Shown here: positions 1 through 46,737 of the stretch, one piece after another
Position numbering within the stretch: the stretch's first letter is position 1
How the letters are laid out: the number at the start of each line of letters is the position of its first letter
Source: Bacteroidetes bacterium HGW-Bacteroidetes-16
Lineage (GTDB): Bacteria; Bacteroidota; Bacteroidia; Bacteroidales; F082
NCBI GenBank assembly: GCA_002840975.1
Contig: PHDN01000002.1
Span: 124,001-188,000 of the forward strand
DNA length: 64,000 nt
Reading direction: 5' to 3'
Made by a program: the position numbers and the translations under genes
Notes under the pieces: generated by a model
Database searches by the model: none
Seen by the model: the letters and a program-made list of their open reading frames with translations, nothing else
Told to the model about the DNA's origin: nothing

Positions 1-1738
1 CTGTAATCCGGCAATGGGTGGAGTTGCAAAAGGTCAAATTGTGCGTGAAATTGACGCCCTTGGTGGGTATTCAGGAATTGTCACCGACAAAACCATGATC
101 CAGTTCCGCATGCTAAACAAATCCAAAGGACCGGCTATGTGGAGCCCAAGGGCCCAAAGCGATCGTATGCTTTTTGCCTTGGAATGGAGACAAATGCTGG
201 AGAAAACTCCAAACCTGGACTTTTGGCAAGATACCGTTACTGAATTAATTCTTGAAGATAATCTGGTGACAGGCGTTGTTACTGGAATGGGTCATAGAAT
301 TTTTTCCAAAGCAGTAATCCTGACTGCTGGTACCTTTTTAAATGGTAAAATTCATATTGGACAAAAACAATTTGGAGGGGGCCGAATGGGAGACTCTCCT
401 TCTTATGGGATCACAGAGCAACTGTTTCATATTGGATTTGAAGCGGCACGACTTAAAACAGGAACTCCCGTTCGTGTTGACGGCCGTACGATCGATTTTT
501 CCAAAATGGAAGAACAAAAAGGGGATGAAAACCCTCAAAAATTTAGCTATACTGATACTCCACACTTAGCTCAACAGCGGAGTTGCTGGATAACCTATAC
601 TTCAAAAAAAGTACATGATATTTTGAGAATGGGCTTTTCTGATTCTCCTATGTTTGCAGGAAGAATTGAAGGAAAAGGACCCAGGTATTGTCCTTCGATT
701 GAAGATAAAATAGATCGATTTTACGATAAAACAAGACACCAATTGTTTGTAGAACCAGAGGGTTGGAATACCATAGAATATTATGTCAACGGATTTTCAT
801 CTTCTCTTCCAGATAATATCCAGCTACAAGCATTGCGTGAAATACCGGGATTTGAAAAAGCAAAAATATTCACACCAGGTTATGCTATAGAATACGACTA
901 CTTCCCTCCTACTCAGCTTAAAAATACACTTGAAACGAAACTGATTAATCACTTATATTTTGCAGGTCAAATAAATGGAACTACAGGATATGAAGAAGCA
1001 GCAGCTCAAGGAATCATAGCAGGAATCAACGCGCATTTAAAACTAAATGAAAAATTGCCTTTTGTGTTAAAACGTCAAGATGCTTACATTGGAGTGTTAA
1101 TAGATGATTTAGTTACCAAAGGCGTTGATGAACCTTATCGGCTTTTTACTTCCAGGGCTGAATACCGGACTTTGCTACGCCAGGACAATGCAGATATCCG
1201 GCTTACACCAAAAGGATATGATTTAGGATTGGCATCACAGGAAAGATTTGATAATGTAATTAAAAAGTATAACAAAATTACCGGGTTTATTCAATTTCTA
1301 AAAACAGAAGGTGTTGCACCAAAAGAAATAAATGATTGCCTCGAATCATTAGAGACCCCAATTTTACGACAACAAGTTAAAGCCTCCGATATCCTTCTTA
1401 GGCCCCAGGTTAACCTCTTTGACCTCATTGAGTCTGTTAAATCTATAAAAACTTATGTTAATACACATCAGCTTAATAAAGAAGAAATAGAAGCGACTGA
1501 AATCCATATTAAATACGAGGGATATATTCAAAAAGAATCAGACGTGGCTGACAAATTATCCAAATTGGAGAATATTTTAATCAATGACAATTTTAATTTT
1601 CACCAACTCCAATCCCTATCCACAGAGGCCAGGCAAAAACTAACCAAAATTCGTCCTTCTACTATCGGTCAAGCATCCAGGATTAGTGGTGTATCCCCGT
1701 CGGATATCAATGTATTGCTTGTGTTTTTTGGTAGATAA
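1..1738 (+). CDS. mnmG: tRNA U34 carboxymethylaminomethyl synthesis enzyme MnmG (GidA), 5' end outside window
   Basis: MnmG binds FAD and NADH and, with MnmE, installs (carboxymethyl)aminomethyl on U34 of certain tRNAs in the cytoplasm. The reading frame is already open at base 2 (residues CNPAMGG), so the N-terminal FAD-binding glycine motif lies upstream of the window. What is visible matches the family: [11 protein letters not shown] at the start, [11 protein letters not shown], the conserved stretch [19 protein letters not shown], and the helical C-terminal MnmE-binding domain with [17 protein letters not shown] near the stop. About 578 residues are present of a usual 620 or so. The next gene follows within 30 bases, with a parS site between them. 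Identification is secure; only the 5' boundary is missing. Confidence 0.96.
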
Positions 1739-1744
1739 TCCAAT

Positions 1745-1760
1745 TGTTTCACGTGAAACA
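1745..1760. promoter_or_regulatory. parS: parS centromere-like site (ParB binding)
   Basis: The 16 bases TGTTTCACGTGAAACA form a perfect palindrome identical to the widely conserved chromosomal parS consensus bound by ParB. The site lies between the mnmG stop and the first ATG of the methyltransferase gene. It can be translated as FHVKH from an upstream TTG, which is an annotation artefact. Chromosomal parS sites usually cluster near the replication origin, and gidA/mnmG is a classic origin-side gene, so location and sequence agree. ParA/ParB genes are not in the window. Confidence 0.9.
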
Positions 1761-1767
1761 TCATAAA

Positions 1768-2649
1768 ATGAAATCAACAAATGTATGCCCGGTATGCGGT
1801 TCTTTTGATATAAATCTTTTCTTGAAGACAAAAGATTATTTCCTGACAAAAGAAGAATTTTCTCTACTAAAATGTGATCAATGCGGCTACCTCTCAACCG
1901 ATCCCGTTCCGACAGAAAAAGAGCTTCCAAAATATTATAACTCAGATCAATATCTTTCGCATACCGCTGCAAATAAAGGGGTATTAAACCGCATATATGA
2001 GGTTCTCCGAACAATCAATATTAAAAGGAAATATACGCTTATTAAATCCTACAAACCGATTGGTTCCATATTAGATATAGGTTGCGGCACAGGTGAACTT
2101 CTTAATTATTTTTCAAGTCATCACTGGTCCACTAAAGGTATTGAGCCAAACAGGGAAGCAAGAGAATTAGCACAAAACTCCTATCATTTGGATGTTGATG
2201 ATGAACCTCAATTGTCGAATTTTTCACCTGAAAGTTATGATGTTATTTCAATGTGGCACGTTTTAGAACACGTTCCCGATATTAATCAAAGAATAATTCA
2301 GGTTATTAAACTACTTAAACGAGATGGAATCATAATGATCGCACTGCCGAATAACAACTCATTTGATTCAATGAAATATGGAGCTTTTTGGGCTGGGCTG
2401 GATGTTCCCCGGCATCTTCACCATTTTAACCCATCATCATTCTCTGTTTTGGCAAAAAAACACAAATTGAAAATTATTGATATCATTCCAATGAAAATGG
2501 ATGCCTACTATGTAAGTCTGCTGAGTGAAAAATACCAAAATAATTCTTTCCCTGTTTTTAGGGCATTCATAACAGGATTCATTTCAAATCTTAAAGGCGC
2601 TAAATCGAATAACTATTCAAGCATGATTTTTGTAATGAAAAAGGAATAA
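1768..2649 (+). CDS. Class I SAM-dependent methyltransferase with N-terminal zinc ribbon
   Basis: A 293-residue protein when started at the ATG at 1768. The longer frame from TTG 1744 only adds a translated parS site and is rejected. Cys7/Cys10 (CPVCG) and Cys36/Cys39 (CDQCG) form a probable zinc ribbon. ILDIGCGTG at residues 101-109 is motif I of class I methyltransferases, and SMWHVLEHV is a motif typical of the Methyltransf_11/23 groups. The ribbon-plus-methyltransferase layout is common among enzymes of sugar or polysaccharide modification, but the substrate cannot be read from the sequence. It lies 9 bases ahead of the large histidine kinase, so co-transcription is likely. Confidence 0.85.
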   Translation: MKSTNVCPVCGSFDINLFLKTKDYFLTKEEFSLLKCDQCGYLSTDPVPTEKELPKYYNSDQYLSHTAANKGVLNRIYEVLRTINIKRKYTLIKSYKPIGSILDIGCGTGELLNYFSSHHWSTKGIEPNREARELAQNSYHLDVDDEPQLSNFSPESYDVISMWHVLEHVPDINQRIIQVIKLLKRDGIIMIALPNNNSFDSMKYGAFWAGLDVPRHLHHFNPSSFSVLAKKHKLKIIDIIPMKMDAYYVSLLSEKYQNNSFPVFRAFITGFISNLKGAKSNNYSSMIFVMKKE

Positions 2650-2658
2650 CGACCTGCA

Positions 2659-5600
2659 ATGGGCTTTATGAGTAAAAATATCGTCAATATTATTACAGAT
2701 AGAAGAAATTATCTTCCATTAATTTCTATCTTACTCATGATCGCTTTATTAATTTTCAATCAATTCTTAAAAAAGGAATATTCGGTAGGCAAATTAAAGA
2801 GTGAACTTTCGTATTATATTGATAACGAGCTATTTAAAATTACAAAAGTAAACGATTCACTTCGCTTAGCACTAGAAAAGGATGCTCAATTTTCATGGAA
2901 TAATCTTAATAATATAACTAATTCCGCAAAGCTCGGATGTTACATTTATCATCAGGATAGTCTCTGCTATTGGAATACATACACCGTTACTCAAAACATT
3001 CCACTTATATTCAATTCTCAGAAAGATACCATTGTAAAATTAAACAATGGAATCTATTTAATCCATCAGCAATTTTTACATTCTTACTTAATTATCACAT
3101 TTAAGGCGCTCCAATATGAATATCAAGTTGAGAACTCATTTCTTAAACCATCAGTTAATCCAGAAATTGCAGTTTGCGATCAGGTAAATTTTTGTTTGGA
3201 TAATGAGTTTGAGGACAATTCAATTTTGATTGAAAGAAGGGGTATTTACAAGCTGTATGGAGTACCGAAAAAAACAATTGTACTTAACAAGACAGATCTG
3301 TTGTTTCTTTACGCTTTGTACTTACTGATGTATGCACTTATCATATTAACCACTTTATCACTATTCAGGCGACTTCATATTTTTTCAAATTCAAAACTAC
3401 TGTTTTATATCAGCTTCGTAATTAGTTTGATTATGATCCGATTAGCTGACTATTACTTACACTTTTTACCTCTTCTTAAAAATAGTACTCTTTTCACCAC
3501 CTCCATTTCACCTATTTCCTTTTTTGAATTTCCGGGAAATATCATTACCAATTCTCTGCTTTTCTTCTTAATATCCTATCTTTTGATAAACGACTTAAAA
3601 CCACCGTGGTATAGAGTAAAATCTGTATACCGTATAATTGGTTATTTTTTAGTCACTTGGTCTGTGGCCATTCTCGTTTCCTACTTTATATTAAGCATAT
3701 TATTATACAACGAATATACATTTATCACCACTTTTAATGAAAATTATCAACCAGAGTGGATTCTTTTAGTCATTGTTTTATTTTCAAATGGAATTTTGTT
3801 TTTTCTACTTTCCGGTTTTTCAATAATTAATCGTCGGCAACCGCTCAAAAAGCTTTACCTTTTTATCGTCCCCTTTTTATTTCTTCCATTTATTTTTATA
3901 TTCAAAGATGAACTTTTCGCCATATCTATAGTTACATGGCTGATGGTAACTATCGCATTTTTAATTGGTTCAACCACCAATCGTTTTCGCTCCTCTATTT
4001 TAGAAGTCTTACTTTTATTGATGCTGTTAGCTGGAGCAAGTGCCTGGATTATTAACAAAACCATTGACGTTAAGGCAAAGAAAATGCAAGAGTTTACGGC
4101 TCAAATGTTATCGCAAAAAAACGACCCATTATTAGAATACGAATTTTCGCTAATGGCAAATAATATTGAACAAGATGATCAACTAAAATCCCTTCTTTCA
4201 TCTGAAACAGAAACGAATCCATTGCTTATCGAGCAATTGCTGATAAATAAATACTTTAACTCAGTATTTGAAAAATACAAAATTCAGATTACGGTTTGCG
4301 ACTCATCAGATCTTTTAGAAATTCAAAATGAAAAGAATCCTATTTCATGTACATCATTTTTTAACGAGTTTAAAACCCAGTCAGGAACTCCGGTTCTTGA
4401 TTCTACATTATACCTAATGGATACTCATACAGAAAATATCTATTACCTGGGTATATTAACATTCAAGTTAAAGAATAACTCTGTTAAAAGAGTATACCTT
4501 GAAATTGTAGCGACCTATGTTCCGGAAGGAATTGGATATCCGGGACTGCTAATTGATCAAAGGGCTCAGGCATATAACCTTACCAACCTTTCCTACGCTC
4601 GATACTATAATGGAACTCTTTTCTACAAATTTGGAGACTATCATTACCCGATTATCCTTTCTCTGGAAAACTCAAAATTGACAGATGTATTTTATAATTC
4701 CAATGGTTATCGACATTATATCATTTCAATCACGAACGAAGAGAATGTTATTGTCAGCCAATCCGTGAAAAGTAACAATATGATACTCTTCCCTTTTTCG
4801 ACGCTCTTTTTGCTTTTTGCTTTAACAGCCTCCATTTTATATACAATTAAGTTTATAATTAAAAATGGATTGATTCATTCTGTTACATTCAGGAACAAAC
4901 TTCAATTATTTATCATTGGTACAATCATTTTTACAATTGCATTACTGGCTGTGGTAACTTTGATTTTTATGAAAAACAACGCCATTGATGAAACAAAGAA
5001 ACAACTTGAAGAAAAAACATATTCTGTTTTCATCGAGTTACAACATAAATTAGCAAATGAAATAACATTTTCAGCAGTAGAAAATGTCCAGCTTGAAACC
5101 TTACTTAAAAAATTCTCACAAGTGTTTTTTTCCGACATTAATCTTTTCGAACCATCAGGAAAACTTGCTGCCACATCGCGTCCGGAGATGGAAGAAAAGG
5201 GCCTATTGTCGAAGGTTATAAATCCAGCAGCCTATCAAGCAATCATGATCAATCACCAGCCTTCGTTTATTACAGAGGAAAAAATTGGATCGTTGACATA
5301 TTACTCTTCATATTTGCCCCTGTTTCTTTCACAAAATAAACCCCAGGCCATTATCAATCTTCCGTATTTCGCACGTCAATCAGAAATATCACAAACCTAT
5401 TTCGGTTTGCTTGCTACTTTCATTAACCTGGCAGTATTGATTGGAATCATCGGAACAATTCTAACGCTCATCATCTCGAGATTTCTCACACGACCACTCT
5501 TTATGCTTAAACAACGTATGGCCGCCATACAAATAGATAAACCCAACAAAATGATCTATTGGCATAACAACGACGAAATAGGTGCGTTGATCAATCAGTA

Positions 5601-41240: not shown

Positions 41241-43718
41241 CTATAGCTTATTAAATAGTCGTTTGGCAAACGACTTCTTTTTATCCGGTTTATCATCGGT
41301 ATAGTATCCATATCCATATCCGTACCCGTATCCATAGCCGTACCCGTATCCATAGCCGTATCCATAGCCGTAACCATAGCCATACCCATAACCACCCCCG
41401 GAGAGTTTTATATCATTGATTACGATACTCATTTTCATGCCACGGGCCTCTATGTCACCAATGATGGAAGAAAACACTTTTTTATGTGTAACTCCCTGAC
41501 GTACAAGGAAAATATTTACATCGGTATGTTCCATCAAAAGGAAAGCATCTGTAACCAGACCAACAGGAGGGGTGTCGATAATGATGTAGTCGTAGCGTTC
41601 TCTCAATTCTTTAAACAGTTGGGTACATCTTTCACCAGCAATCAACTCCGCCGGGTTAGGGGGCACAGGCCCGGCCATAATCATGTCCAGGTAATCGTTA
41701 ACCCCGGAAGGCTGAATGATATCGTCGATGGTGGCTTTGTTAATCAGGTAAGTGGTTAAACCTTTGCTGTTCGACAAACCAAAATCCTGATAGATTTTCG
41801 GTTTACGCAGGTCGAAACCAAGTAATACTGTTTTTTTACCATATTGGGCGTAAATACTGGCCGTATTGATAGATACAAAGGTTTTTCCTGCACTTACCAT
41901 ATCAGCGGTAACCATGATACAAAGCTGGTCCTTTCCTTTGGCTACATATTGAATGTTGGTTCTCATGCTTCGGAACGCCTCGCTCACACTCGATTTAGGC
42001 GATTCCAATACCACGAGTTGAGTTTCTTTGCTGGAGTGGAGAAGTTGCCCGATAATGGGAAATTTGGTTGCGTTTTCGACATCCTTTTTCTCGATAATGG
42101 CATCGTTAAAATAGTCTTTTCCAAGCACATATACTACAGGAAATACCAGACCCAAAATGAGGGCGATCATGTAATTAAGTGATTTTTTAGGAAATACCTG
42201 TTCTCCAAGTTCTTCTCTTGCCACGTCAATCACTTCATTATCAGGTAGGTTGGACGCTTTAGTGATTTGTGCTTCAGAACGCTTTTCTAACAGATAAGTA
42301 TAAATATTGTCGGCCAGCTTAAACTCGCGCTGAAAGCCAATCAACTTACGTTGGGTAACAGGTAAATAGCTTGCCCGGTTCGTGACTTCATTGATTCGCT
42401 TATCAATTTCCGCCAGCGCCTGATTTGAATTTTGGATGATGTTGTTGATGTTTCCCAGAATTGCGTTTTGCGTACTTCTGATCTGGGTGTTCATACTTAA
42501 AATGGTTGAACTTTTCTCGGTTAAATAGAGTAAGTTCTCTGTTTTTTTATTGTACAAGGCAATCAATTCCCCTACCAGGGTATTTAAAACAGGATCTTCT
42601 ATTCCCATGGCAGAAGGGGCTACCAATTCATCAATATTTTCCGAATTTTTAACAATGTAGTTCTTGAGGTTGTTGTAATACCTTGATTTTACTTCTAATT
42701 CGGCTTGTTGTTTTTGCAGGTCTTCGATGTACTGAAAAACTTGTTGGGCCTGAAAGCTCATGTCCATCACCTCGTTTTTCGACTGAAATTCCTGAAGGTT
42801 AATCTCGGCACTATTTAACGAATCGGAAATAATGTTGAGTTGGTTATCAATAAAACGGATGGTATTGTCAGCAATTTGATTTTTTTGCTCCAGGCTTCTG
42901 GTAAGATAAATATGGGTGAGCATATTTAGAAAGTCCACCGCTTTATGAATATTGTCTTTTTTCATTTTAATATTCAGGATAGAGGCTTCCCTGTTGATGG
43001 GTTCAATATCAAATCCCCTGAATTGCTGGGTCAAACTGTAATAATCACTGAAAATGAAGTTATAGTTTTCTTTCAGGTTTAATTCCGGATCAAACGAATT
43101 GGTCAGGATCACGGTGAATTTCGCGAAAGGAGTTTCAATGAGCTCTCCAAAAGCATATTCTCCCGACCAGTTGATCCGTTCGATCACACCATCATCATAT
43201 TTATTGGTACCAAACACATATTTTTTAATCAGTTCGGCCTCGGCATCAATCTTGAAGGTATTCTTGTTGATAAATTTCAGGTCATATTTCAATCCAACGG
43301 CCTGGGCTACAGAAGTGTCGAACACCACCTCAAAAGGAGAATTTTTATATAGTTCCGTGCTCACCAGCCCTTCATCAATAAAATACGAGACTTCAAAACC
43401 GAGATTTTGAATCGATCTGTAGGTAAGTGAGAACGAAGAGAGAATCCCGATTTCGTTTTCTACGTTCTGTTGGGTATTGCTTAGTCCAATTCCAAGCATT
43501 GCTGAAGGGTCGAGTTTAGATTTATCATCTTTAACCAGGACGGAGGTGCTTACTTCAAACACGGGGTTCGTGTATTTATTGAACAAGAAAGCCACCACGA
43601 AGGCCACAAAAACGGTAAGGGCAAACAGGTACCAATACCTGACGAACTTATAAAACAGAGCCCTTAAATCAATGGTTTCTTCTTGTGGCTGAATACCGTC
43701 AAAATTTTCTACTGCCAT
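41241..43718 (-). CDS. Wzc-like polysaccharide co-polymerase/tyrosine kinase with Gly-Tyr tail
   Basis: An 825-residue inner-membrane protein. A first helix near 30-50 precedes a Wzz domain, a long periplasmic coiled-coil region (about 270-470) and a second helix near 505-525. A cytoplasmic BY-kinase ATPase domain follows, with an AGKT P-loop (Lys612), Walker A' LLGFDLRKPK and Walker B YIIIDTPP. The Walker A lacks the usual PGEGKS spacing but keeps GKT. The tail at 777-806 is fourteen Tyr-Gly dipeptides plus Tyr-Tyr, sixteen tyrosines in all, a likely autophosphorylation cluster. It follows the Wza-like gene by 17 bases and controls chain length/export of a surface polysaccharide. Confidence 0.93.
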   Translation of the reverse strand: MAVENFDGIQPQEETIDLRALFYKFVRYWYLFALTVFVAFVVAFLFNKYTNPVFEVSTSVLVKDDKSKLDPSAMLGIGLSNTQQNVENEIGILSSFSLTYRSIQNLGFEVSYFIDEGLVSTELYKNSPFEVVFDTSVAQAVGLKYDLKFINKNTFKIDAEAELIKKYVFGTNKYDDGVIERINWSGEYAFGELIETPFAKFTVILTNSFDPELNLKENYNFIFSDYYSLTQQFRGFDIEPINREASILNIKMKKDNIHKAVDFLNMLTHIYLTRSLEQKNQIADNTIRFIDNQLNIISDSLNSAEINLQEFQSKNEVMDMSFQAQQVFQYIEDLQKQQAELEVKSRYYNNLKNYIVKNSENIDELVAPSAMGIEDPVLNTLVGELIALYNKKTENLLYLTEKSSTILSMNTQIRSTQNAILGNINNIIQNSNQALAEIDKRINEVTNRASYLPVTQRKLIGFQREFKLADNIYTYLLEKRSEAQITKASNLPDNEVIDVAREELGEQVFPKKSLNYMIALILGLVFPVVYVLGKDYFNDAIIEKKDVENATKFPIIGQLLHSSKETQLVVLESPKSSVSEAFRSMRTNIQYVAKGKDQLCIMVTADMVSAGKTFVSINTASIYAQYGKKTVLLGFDLRKPKIYQDFGLSNSKGLTTYLINKATIDDIIQPSGVNDYLDMIMAGPVPPNPAELIAGERCTQLFKELRERYDYIIIDTPPVGLVTDAFLLMEHTDVNIFLVRQGVTHKKVFSSIIGDIEARGMKMSIVINDIKLSGGGYGYGYGYGYGYGYGYGYGYGYGYGYGYGYYTDDKPDKKKSFAKRLFNKL
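41301..41390. repeat. Imperfect 6-bp tandem repeat encoding the Gly-Tyr tail
   Basis: Reading the minus strand, Tyr codons (TAT or TAC) alternate with Gly codons of all four third bases used irregularly. The protein repeat is perfect while the DNA repeat is not, suggesting selection on the peptide. Length variation by slippage is still possible. Confidence 0.85.
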
Positions 43719-44795: not shown

Positions 44796-44803
44796 TATAT
44801 TTG
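44796..44803 (+). promoter_or_regulatory. -7 box of the phosphoesterase-fold gene
   Basis: TATATTTG matches TAnnTTTG and lies 23 bases before the ATG at 44827. The nearest upstream TTG (44767-44769) is somewhat too far. Confidence 0.45.
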
Positions 44804-44826: not shown

Positions 44827-46737
44827 ATGCATAAATTTATTTCCTTCGGCATTATATTCTCTTTGTTTGCGATTCCAATAGGTATTGTTGCCCAATCTTT
44901 CCAGTTAAATCAATTGGTTCCATCCGTATACTCTTGCATCCTGCCTGACAAAAACGGTCAGCTTTTCTTTCTGCCGGTTACTTCGGGAGATACCAGCTGG
45001 ATCAAAAATGATTCTTCATTTTATGTTCCCGATCACCTGATGACGGAACCAAAAGGAACACATAAGGGTTTGTTCTTCGACTTCAAAAACAAGGATTTTT
45101 ATGGAAACCTTTATTACGGACCATTTCCTGATGAGCCGATCCTGGTTTCATTGCCTTCGTTTTCAAAAAGCACCCGAATTATTGCAGGCATCGCCAATCT
45201 TGATTGTTCACCGTTTTTTGACCCAACCACATCCGATACTCCCCAAAATATAAAACTCGCCTACCGGATTGCTGATCAATATGGTCGAATGTTGTACGAT
45301 GGAACCATTCGCGTCAATAAAGGGGAACAAATAATTCCTGCAATCACGATCATGGAAGGACCTTTTGTTAATCGGGTTGATCACCACAGTGCATACATCT
45401 CATTTACCACTAATCAGCGTTGTAGTTCCCTGGTAGTTGTTGATGGTCGTGAATTTAGAACAGTTAGTATGTTGGCCAATATGCAGGGAGATAAAATTCA
45501 TATAATCAAAATCGATCAGTTACTTCCTGAAACCAACTACCAATATGAAGTTCATTTTGGCGATTCTGTTGAGACCTATTCTTTTACAACAGCACCAATG
45601 CCCGGAAGCAGAAATTCTTTTGTGTTTGCTTTTACTTCTAAAACCCAGGCCGGTTTTGGTAGCGGTGAGAGCGAGTTCCTGGGAGTAAATCAGCTTTTGT
45701 TACAAAAAGCATCAGCGTTGGCAGCTCATGAAAACGTTGTTTTTTTTCAATTCTCAGGTAACTTGATCAGCGGGTATGTTTCGGAGGTGGGGGAGGCCGA
45801 TCAACAGTATTTTAACTGGAAAAAAGCGGTGGAACCTTTTGGGCATTATATACCATACTATGTCGGTTTAGGCGATCACGAGGCGGTGGAGCACGTTTTC
45901 GACGATGGCAGCAAGTATGGACTGGCAGTTGATAAGTTCCCTTTTGCTTCCGCTTCAGCGGAGGCCATTTTTGCAACTCATTTTGTTCAACCCGAAAATG
46001 GTCCTCAAAGCGAAGATGGTTCTGTTTACGATCCTCATTTGGAGGCAGGTGACTTTCCTTCCTATAAGGAAAATGTTTATTCTTATACCTACGATAACCT
46101 TGCTGTAATAGTGCTCAATTCAAATTATTGGTACACGCCTTCATACAAAGCGGTGTCGATGATAGGAGGTAATCTTTCCGGCTATATTATGGACAACCAA
46201 ATCAAATGGCTGTCAACTACCATCGATCAATTGGAGCAGGATAATCATATCGATCATGTTGTGGTGGTTATTAATTCTCCGGTTTTCCCAACCGGGAACA
46301 ACATCAATTCAGGAATGTGGTATGGTGGTAATAATGCCGTCAGGCCCATGGTGGCTGCTGAAAAAGTGAGTAAAGGAATCATTGAACGCAGGGACGAAGT
46401 GTTAGATGTGCTGATCAACAGGAGTTCAAAAACGAAAATCGTTCTATCCTCTGATGAGCATGGCTATTCGAGATTGGCCATTCATCCGGAACTGGATTTG
46501 TACCCTGAGGGTTACCGGGGTAAGATGTTACATCTGAGTCACAGTCTAACTCAAATAACGTGTGGATTGAGTGGAAAAGCTGGTAAAAAACTAGCGGATC
46601 TACCCTGGTCAGGTTCTATTGAAAAATGGTCCTCACAACCTGCCGTTGTCTTTATTCAGGTAACAGGGAAACAGATTTTGTTGCGTGCAATAAACCCACA
46701 AACCATAGAGGAGATTGAAGAAATTAATATTAAGTAG
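44827..46737 (+). CDS. Exported metallophosphoesterase/purple-acid-phosphatase-fold protein with altered metal ligands
   Basis: 636 residues with a signal peptide (about 1-22, ending IVAQS). An N-terminal beta region and a fibronectin-like segment (about 180-255, LLPETNYQYEVHFGD) precede a calcineurin-like domain (about 262-580). The fold order of purple acid phosphatases is kept, but the ligand motifs differ. GDxxY reads GNLISGY (Asn312, Tyr317), GNH reads GDHE (350-352), VxxH reads VVINSP (Asn483), and GHxHxY reads SDEHGY (Asp543, His545). The first Asp is also not seen (Ser271 region). It may bind metals differently or be inactive. It stands alone. Confidence 0.75.
   Translation: MHKFISFGIIFSLFAIPIGIVAQSFQLNQLVPSVYSCILPDKNGQLFFLPVTSGDTSWIKNDSSFYVPDHLMTEPKGTHKGLFFDFKNKDFYGNLYYGPFPDEPILVSLPSFSKSTRIIAGIANLDCSPFFDPTTSDTPQNIKLAYRIADQYGRMLYDGTIRVNKGEQIIPAITIMEGPFVNRVDHHSAYISFTTNQRCSSLVVVDGREFRTVSMLANMQGDKIHIIKIDQLLPETNYQYEVHFGDSVETYSFTTAPMPGSRNSFVFAFTSKTQAGFGSGESEFLGVNQLLLQKASALAAHENVVFFQFSGNLISGYVSEVGEADQQYFNWKKAVEPFGHYIPYYVGLGDHEAVEHVFDDGSKYGLAVDKFPFASASAEAIFATHFVQPENGPQSEDGSVYDPHLEAGDFPSYKENVYSYTYDNLAVIVLNSNYWYTPSYKAVSMIGGNLSGYIMDNQIKWLSTTIDQLEQDNHIDHVVVVINSPVFPTGNNINSGMWYGGNNAVRPMVAAEKVSKGIIERRDEVLDVLINRSSKTKIVLSSDEHGYSRLAIHPELDLYPEGYRGKMLHLSHSLTQITCGLSGKAGKKLADLPWSGSIEKWSSQPAVVFIQVTGKQILLRAINPQTIEEIEEINIK

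Follow-up and report, generated by a model that had tools for sequence, protein, structure and literature searches.

A probable pseudophosphatase with a purple acid phosphatase fold, retained in one genus of Bacteroidia after loss of most of its metal ligands

In Vps29, a subunit of the retromer, the bridging Asp of the metallophosphoesterase site is reported to be an Asn and the Asn ligand an Asp; a Phe stands at the expected catalytic site, and a lack of activity is noted for this sorting-complex subunit (PMC2674652). Plasmodium GAP50, which has the purple acid phosphatase (PAP) fold and anchors a protein complex at a membrane, is also described as an active acid phosphatase (PMC8949495). 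Eukaryotic DNA polymerase B-subunits are presented as regulatory subunits with a catalytically inactive calcineurin-like phosphodiesterase fold (PMC4996933). For Bacillus PhoD, Asp-436 is described as bridging Fe and CaA; the Fe site also uses a Cys and a Tyr, and the calcium sites use Asp/Asn. In PhoD, exchange of a single ligand was reported to abolish activity or to reduce it drastically (PMC4223295). In a partial library of the literature, no paper was found on metallophosphoesterase pseudoenzymes or on catalytically inactive periplasmic ones from Bacteroidetes.

The gene considered here lies in a stretch of 64,000 nucleotides, called the window in its entirety, and its product is probably a genus-specific exported pseudophosphatase whose retained role would lie in binding or in structure. 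A preliminary description of this DNA had reported a full-length gene for a PAP-fold protein with a signal peptide; the frame is indeed open throughout, and a signal-peptide-like start is seen by eye. The gene and its parts are as follows.

44796..44803, + strand: TATATTTG, of the form TAnnTTTG, a possible promoter box
44827..46737, + strand: PAP-fold protein of 636 aa; open frame, predicted structure with pLDDT 86.1 and pTM 0.88, structural matches to PAPs
44827..44895, + strand: putative signal peptide, residues 1-23, start MHKFISFGIIFSLFAIPIGIVAQ, judged by eye
44914..45264, + strand: N-terminal domain, fold unassigned, residues about 30-146, mostly pLDDT 85-95
45265..45609, + strand: Fn3-like PAP N-terminal domain, residues about 147-261, from Pfam and coverage by plant PAPs
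45610..46734, + strand: metallophosphoesterase domain, residues 262-636, from structural matches (Foldseek, VIA-align)

The PAP fold claimed earlier is confirmed by the predicted structure. The AlphaFold2 model, built from a 30-row alignment, matches PAPs and PhoD in Foldseek and aligns in VIA-align with kidney bean PAP 6hwr_C at Z 28.0 and rmsd 3.4 over 374 residues (span 147-636), which places the protein in the PAP/metallophosphoesterase superfamily with an N-terminal Fn3-like domain. The model of L005, a relative with all ligands in place, has largely the same structural neighbours (pLDDT 81.5). At the level of sequence profiles, DUF7800 is found above the cut-off at residues 175-247 and Pur_ac_phosph_N under it at residues 219-255, and the Pfam family Metallophos gives no match in the window protein. 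Residues about 30-146 have no Pfam match and are barely covered by the rows of the VIA-align alignment. For the window protein, an NCBIfam search returned no family, a PDB search with this single sequence returned nothing at E <= 1, and PhoD of Pfam gave no match at E <= 1, a search in which the HMMER filters can drop weak matches. Among 30 family members, Metallophos is matched at E <= 0.01 in 24 and PhoD weakly in two (best E 0.0034); some of the Metallophos matches lie under the curated cut-off, as in L005 (20.4 bits vs 21.5). A TAnnTTTG box, which we take to be a possible -7 promoter box of the Bacteroidetes type, precedes the gene in each of the five genus genomes and also in two of the four ligand-complete relatives looked at. 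A search for a second family copy in the genome of the window found this gene to be the sole one. The same genome has three weak Pur_ac_phosph_N matches, one of which is the gene itself, as well as nine Metallophos matches, so that the organism may still have phosphatase activity.

The protein belongs to a family of exported metallophosphoesterases of Bacteroidia, as seen from full-length similarity (identities of 42-49% with those ligand-complete proteins of its taxonomic family that are full-length) and from the place of the gene, with synteny in part of the relatives. Within the taxonomic family, 40 of the 173 genomes have a family match, and at class level 14 of 395 sampled genomes have one at E <= 1e-40, the genome of the window being counted in both; at order level, 104 of 393 sampled genomes match the profile, many over one domain only. 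The final alignment has 87 rows (74 plus 13 added); the count of 80 full-length or near-full-length rows outside the genus leaves out the fragment L096. Fragments of G006 and G002 from the taxonomic-family search, and those of G239, G395, G311 and G331 together with weaker domain-level matches from the order-level search, were not used; alignment A1 consists of matched spans, not of whole frames, and leaves out the two parts of the gene of G171. L056 (G426) has the ligand motifs and an in-frame TGA, which is either decay or an assembly error, and only its 541-aa open part entered the alignment.

Eight residues characterize the family, namely, in the numbering of the window protein, D272, D312, N350, H351, H483, H492, D543, and H545, and the set is complete in 79 of the 80 rows from outside the genus (H351 in 80/80; the other columns are given below). 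Their assignment as ligands follows from the alignment of the family profile to sweet potato PAP, in which FAYTSD falls on FGLIGD, GD on GD, GNHE on GNHE, and, with weaker placement, IHTP on VHAP; the best match of this profile in a sequence-profile search of the PDB is 1xzw (E 1.8e-6). The last motif, GDEH, was placed from the order of the motifs and from the extent of the Metallophos match in L005, which reaches residue 525, at profile position 190/191. Conservation, taken together with known PAP motifs, suggests that H492 is a ligand and H351 the catalytic residue, and the ligand-complete relatives are presumably active. L015 (G144, gene at 1501-3336), which comes from a different genus within the taxonomic family, has a partial loss of its own, D272G and D312N, with the six other residues kept; it is the only row outside the genus in which ligand changes are seen, and the near-invariant columns were defined without it. 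The corresponding sites in the window protein are listed below.

45640..45642, + strand: K272 replacing ligand D272 (SDSR); D in 79/80 outside rows
45760..45762, + strand: N312 replacing the bridging ligand D312 (GDxxxGY); D in 79/80 outside rows
45874..45876, + strand: D350 replacing ligand N350 (GNHE); N in 80/80 outside rows
46273..46275, + strand: N483 replacing ligand H483 (IHTP); H in 81/81 outside rows
46300..46302, + strand: N492 replacing H492 (GGH); H in 81/81 outside rows
46453..46461, + strand: D543-E544-H545, the last ligand motif, kept; GDEH in 81/81 outside rows
46561..46587, + strand: residues 579-587, a rewritten loop; CGLSGKAGK here vs NGSAGAPYY in the family consensus

Thus, five of the eight ligand or catalytic residues are changed in the window protein, which keeps H351, adjacent to D350, as well as D543 and H545, and the complete two-metal ligand set of a PAP enzyme is absent. 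The Tyr iron ligand of GDxxY would also be missing, as in the sequence alignment S315 stands at +3 from the bridging position and the kept Tyr317 at +5. All four motifs visible by eye had been described as altered. Against the rows from outside the genus, this is correct for three of them (GN for GD, that is, D312N; GDHE for GNH, that is, D350 for N350; and Asn483 for His), but the fourth, reported as SDEHGY for GHxHxY, was misread, given that the family norm is GDEHNY and that only the flanking residues differ (G542S, N546G); a proper alignment puts canonical ligands back at this motif only. Likewise, GDxxY had been taken as the reference motif, whereas most relatives have GDxxxGY, of which Y317 is kept. 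Two losses had been overlooked, D272K (SDSR to SKTQ) and H492N (GGH to GNN). One misplaced motif out of four might raise the suspicion that the whole pattern comes from wrong motif placement or sequencing error, but the remaining sites lie in conserved blocks that align well, and separately assembled genomes of the genus show the changes again, which speaks against an error for five of the eight residues; such an artefact is very hard to credit.

The genus was sampled with five genomes (G000, G169, G170, G171, and G172), one of which has the gene split over two contigs (G171), and two of which are those of Bacteroidetes bacterium GWF2_41_31 and CG18_big_fil_WC_8_21_14_2_50_41_14; L021 and L025 are members of the genus and were kept out of the ligand-complete set. 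Each of the five lacks at least five of the eight residues, and the sets differ. G169 is the same as the window protein at all eight, and G171 has N272, N312, D350, N483, and K492 with D543 and H545 retained. G172 has lost six (T272, D350, N483, N492, Q543, and Q545, with D312 kept) and G170 seven (G272, N312, H350, D483, N492, S543, and V545), the last ligand motif reading AQDQ in the former and SSEV in the latter. Wherever a genus row covers D272, N350, H483, or H492, the residue is changed, and position 272 alone reads K, K, N, T, and G across the five genomes.

These changes fall on ligands more often than on other near-invariant columns. In the window protein and in G169, 5 of 8 ligand columns are changed vs 20 of 106 others, in G172 6 of 8 vs 21 of 106, and in G170 7 of 8 vs 30 of 106 (Fisher p 0.012, 0.012, 0.0022, and 0.0015 for the four full-length members). 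When all near-invariant changes, ligands included, are considered, no significant clustering within 10 residues of a ligand is found (19 changed and 22 kept vs 24 and 49, p 0.17). With ligands excluded and the loop 576-590 counted as pocket, the figures are 20 and 22 vs 16 and 48 (p 0.021), a version to be weighted accordingly because it was chosen after the loop had been seen, and in which the pocket itself is a presumed one. At 579, N is near-invariant outside the genus and C uniform within it. Four replacements, S451, G496, G546, and C579, are shared by all genus rows and differ from the rest of the family, and 70 of the 114 near-invariant columns are conserved throughout the genus rows.

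The pairing of N312 with D350 had been regarded as a compensatory exchange of Asp and Asn. It occurs in three of the five genomes (G000, G169, and G171, in the last on separate contigs), which argues against a fixed compensatory swap, and the idea was dropped, as G172 combines D312 with D350 and G170 combines N312 with H350. A related possibility is that the metal site has changed and still works, with D350, D543, and H545, helped by K272, holding one metal ion or replacing the second so that hydrolysis persists. The window protein does keep H351, D543, and H545 and has gained D350, the combination of N312 and D350 is shared by the three genomes just named, and Vps29 is described as ligating metal via such Asn and Asp residues. 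A re-engineered site would, however, be expected to settle on one ligand set, and the set varies between species: G172 has neither D543 nor H545, and G170 has H350, S543, and V545. Moreover, H483, H492, and D272 are lost throughout the genus, the loop 579-587 is rewritten, and in PhoD, activity was reported to be abolished or drastically lowered once a single ligand had been replaced (PMC4223295). A working site is therefore quite improbable. Since H351, D543, and H545 remain, the window protein may still hold a single weak metal site.

Whether the gene is simply decaying can be judged from its rate of change. For the window protein, dN/dS is 0.296 vs G169 (bootstrap 95% 0.208-0.423), 0.138 vs the C-terminal part of G171 (0.090-0.197), and 0.229 vs its N-terminal part (0.158-0.329), whereas six ligand-complete pairs range from 0.042 to 0.149 over the whole gene, a range whose top overlaps with the 0.138 of the C-terminal part of G171. 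In the catalytic domain alone (NG86), five ligand-complete pairs give 0.029-0.080, and the window protein 0.253 vs G169 and 0.138-0.171 vs G171. Within the genus, these ratios are limited to pairs with G169 and G171 because dS is saturated for pairs with G172 and G170. Between the genome of the window and G169, 15 of 17 other frames have ratios of 0.006-0.143; the two higher ones are a frame of 155 codons (0.299) and one of 166 codons with very few synonymous changes (2.286). Divergence relative to topA is 3.10-6.30 in the genus (median 3.42, 6 pairs) and 1.23-2.39 among ligand-complete relatives (median 1.59, 91 pairs), a difference of about twofold that is only rough, because many of the topA pieces are partial where loci end there and ratios of percent identity saturate. 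None of the six places of the gene in the genus has an internal stop, whereas about 8 to 43 would be expected without selection in a gene of this length at dS 0.13-0.67. Constraint is loosened but still present, and purifying selection has continued after the loss of the ligands.

Accordingly, the earlier view that this is not simple decay holds, given the open frame and the purifying selection (dN/dS 0.14-0.30). Slow decay would mean that the enzyme is dispensable in the genus and that the protein drifts toward loss with no new role. The raised dN/dS and the doubled relative rate fit this account, as does the fact that the same ligand sites carry different residues in different species; moreover, the window protein shows the lowest identity among matched syntenic neighbours in comparisons with G169, G172, and G170. 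The weaker selection, the roughly doubled relative divergence, and the very long branch of G170 leave room for drift. Nevertheless, the frame is open at the places of the gene in the genus, the pairs that postdate the loss are under purifying selection with bootstrap upper bounds of 0.20-0.42, and the 70 scaffold columns kept, together with the uniform C579, S451, G496, and G546, argue against mere decay, which is an unlikely account on the whole.

The place of the gene allows the loss to be set against a starting point. In the genus, it has a divergent wza-like gene on one side and topA on the other, and relatives with all ligands, such as L005, L010, and L020, have it between wza and topA as well; the gene is a syntenic ortholog of ligand-complete relatives. 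Across the 71 loci examined, many of them short, topA is in the same locus in 18 and wza in 19, four of each from the genus. Nine ligand-complete loci were compared, and the three just named have both genes; other genes of the wider neighbourhood in the window are seen in L029 and L065, and L047 has a match to a distant window gene only. For L070, L030, and L036, no genes of the window neighbourhood occur within the loci read, most of which are about 4.8 kb. The four full-length genus rows form one clade with an SH-aLRT of 100 in a quick tree with a midpoint root, in which the branch of G170 has a length of 2.01. Given that D272, N350, H483, and H492 are changed throughout this clade, the simplest history is one ancestral loss followed by further change. 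The partial loss in L015 suggests that loss of D272 and D312 may be an early step. Nearby, at 41241-43718 on the - strand, a Wzc-like protein carries a long C-terminal tail of Gly-Tyr repeats (GYGYGY...) that is letter-identical in the five genus genomes, while identity over the whole protein goes down to 83%. The neighbouring genes for polysaccharide export are context and not functional evidence, and a link of the PAP-fold protein to them would be conjectural.

Taken as a pseudoenzyme, a protein that has lost catalytic residues while fold and selection are retained, the window protein would have the following history. The ancestral gene would have encoded an exported Bacteroidia protein whose two-metal phosphoesterase site was complete; in the ancestor of one genus, this protein would have lost most of its metal ligands together with the adjacent loops and been retained as a non-catalytic member of the PAP fold. 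It may now bind a partner, which could be a ligand that is phosphorylated or anionic, a polysaccharide, or a protein of the envelope, or it may serve the cell envelope as a structural subunit. Judged from the residues, the window protein presumably hydrolyzes no substrate, and a binding or scaffold role, of which binding had been raised as a possibility from the outset, appears to be the likely outcome. A more specific version, to be entertained tentatively and rather unlikely as a whole, is that the old active-site pocket has been rebuilt as a metal-poor binding pocket, turning a hydrolase into an envelope binding protein in a single genus; its signs would be the uniform C579, S451, G496, and G546, position 492 with either N or K, and the K272 that two species share. 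If true, bacteria would offer a counterpart to the exchange of Asp and Asn in Vps29, with orthologs at the same place that keep the full ligand set. In any case, one gene at one place has its metal site complete in other genera of the taxonomic family, while here the site is dismantled and the gene kept; this before-and-after pair, combined with species that differ in the ligands lost, makes a route from enzyme to pseudoenzyme testable within one family.

Among known systems, the plant PAPs (1xzw, 4dhl, 1kbp, and 6hwr) share with the window protein the combination of Fn3-like and metallophosphoesterase domains and are the best structural match to its model (Z 27.5-28.0), at 15-16% identity over the structural alignment. 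The last motif of PAPs is GHxH, in the place of which the ligand-complete bacterial family has GDEH, and no purple colour would be expected in this family, as its sequences have no Tyr at +3 from the bridging Asp; beyond these family differences, five of the eight family residues are missing from the window protein. Bacillus PhoD (2yeq) matches the model in fold (Foldseek E 1.3e-17, VIA-align Z 21.4), and its Asp-436 presumably stands in a GDxH motif, as in the bacterial family here, but PhoD is an active enzyme, unlike the putative pseudoenzyme of the window. GAP50 (3tgh) matches at Z 23.3 and rmsd 2.7 over 253 residues and is unrelated in context. The B-subunits of eukaryotic DNA polymerases are intracellular, unlike the exported window protein, and differ from it in domain arrangement. 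Vps29 is the closest precedent, with a metallophosphoesterase fold and the same exchange of Asp and Asn. Vps29 is a small, cytosolic, eukaryotic protein; the window protein, by contrast, is exported, keeps H351, and has lost further ligands.
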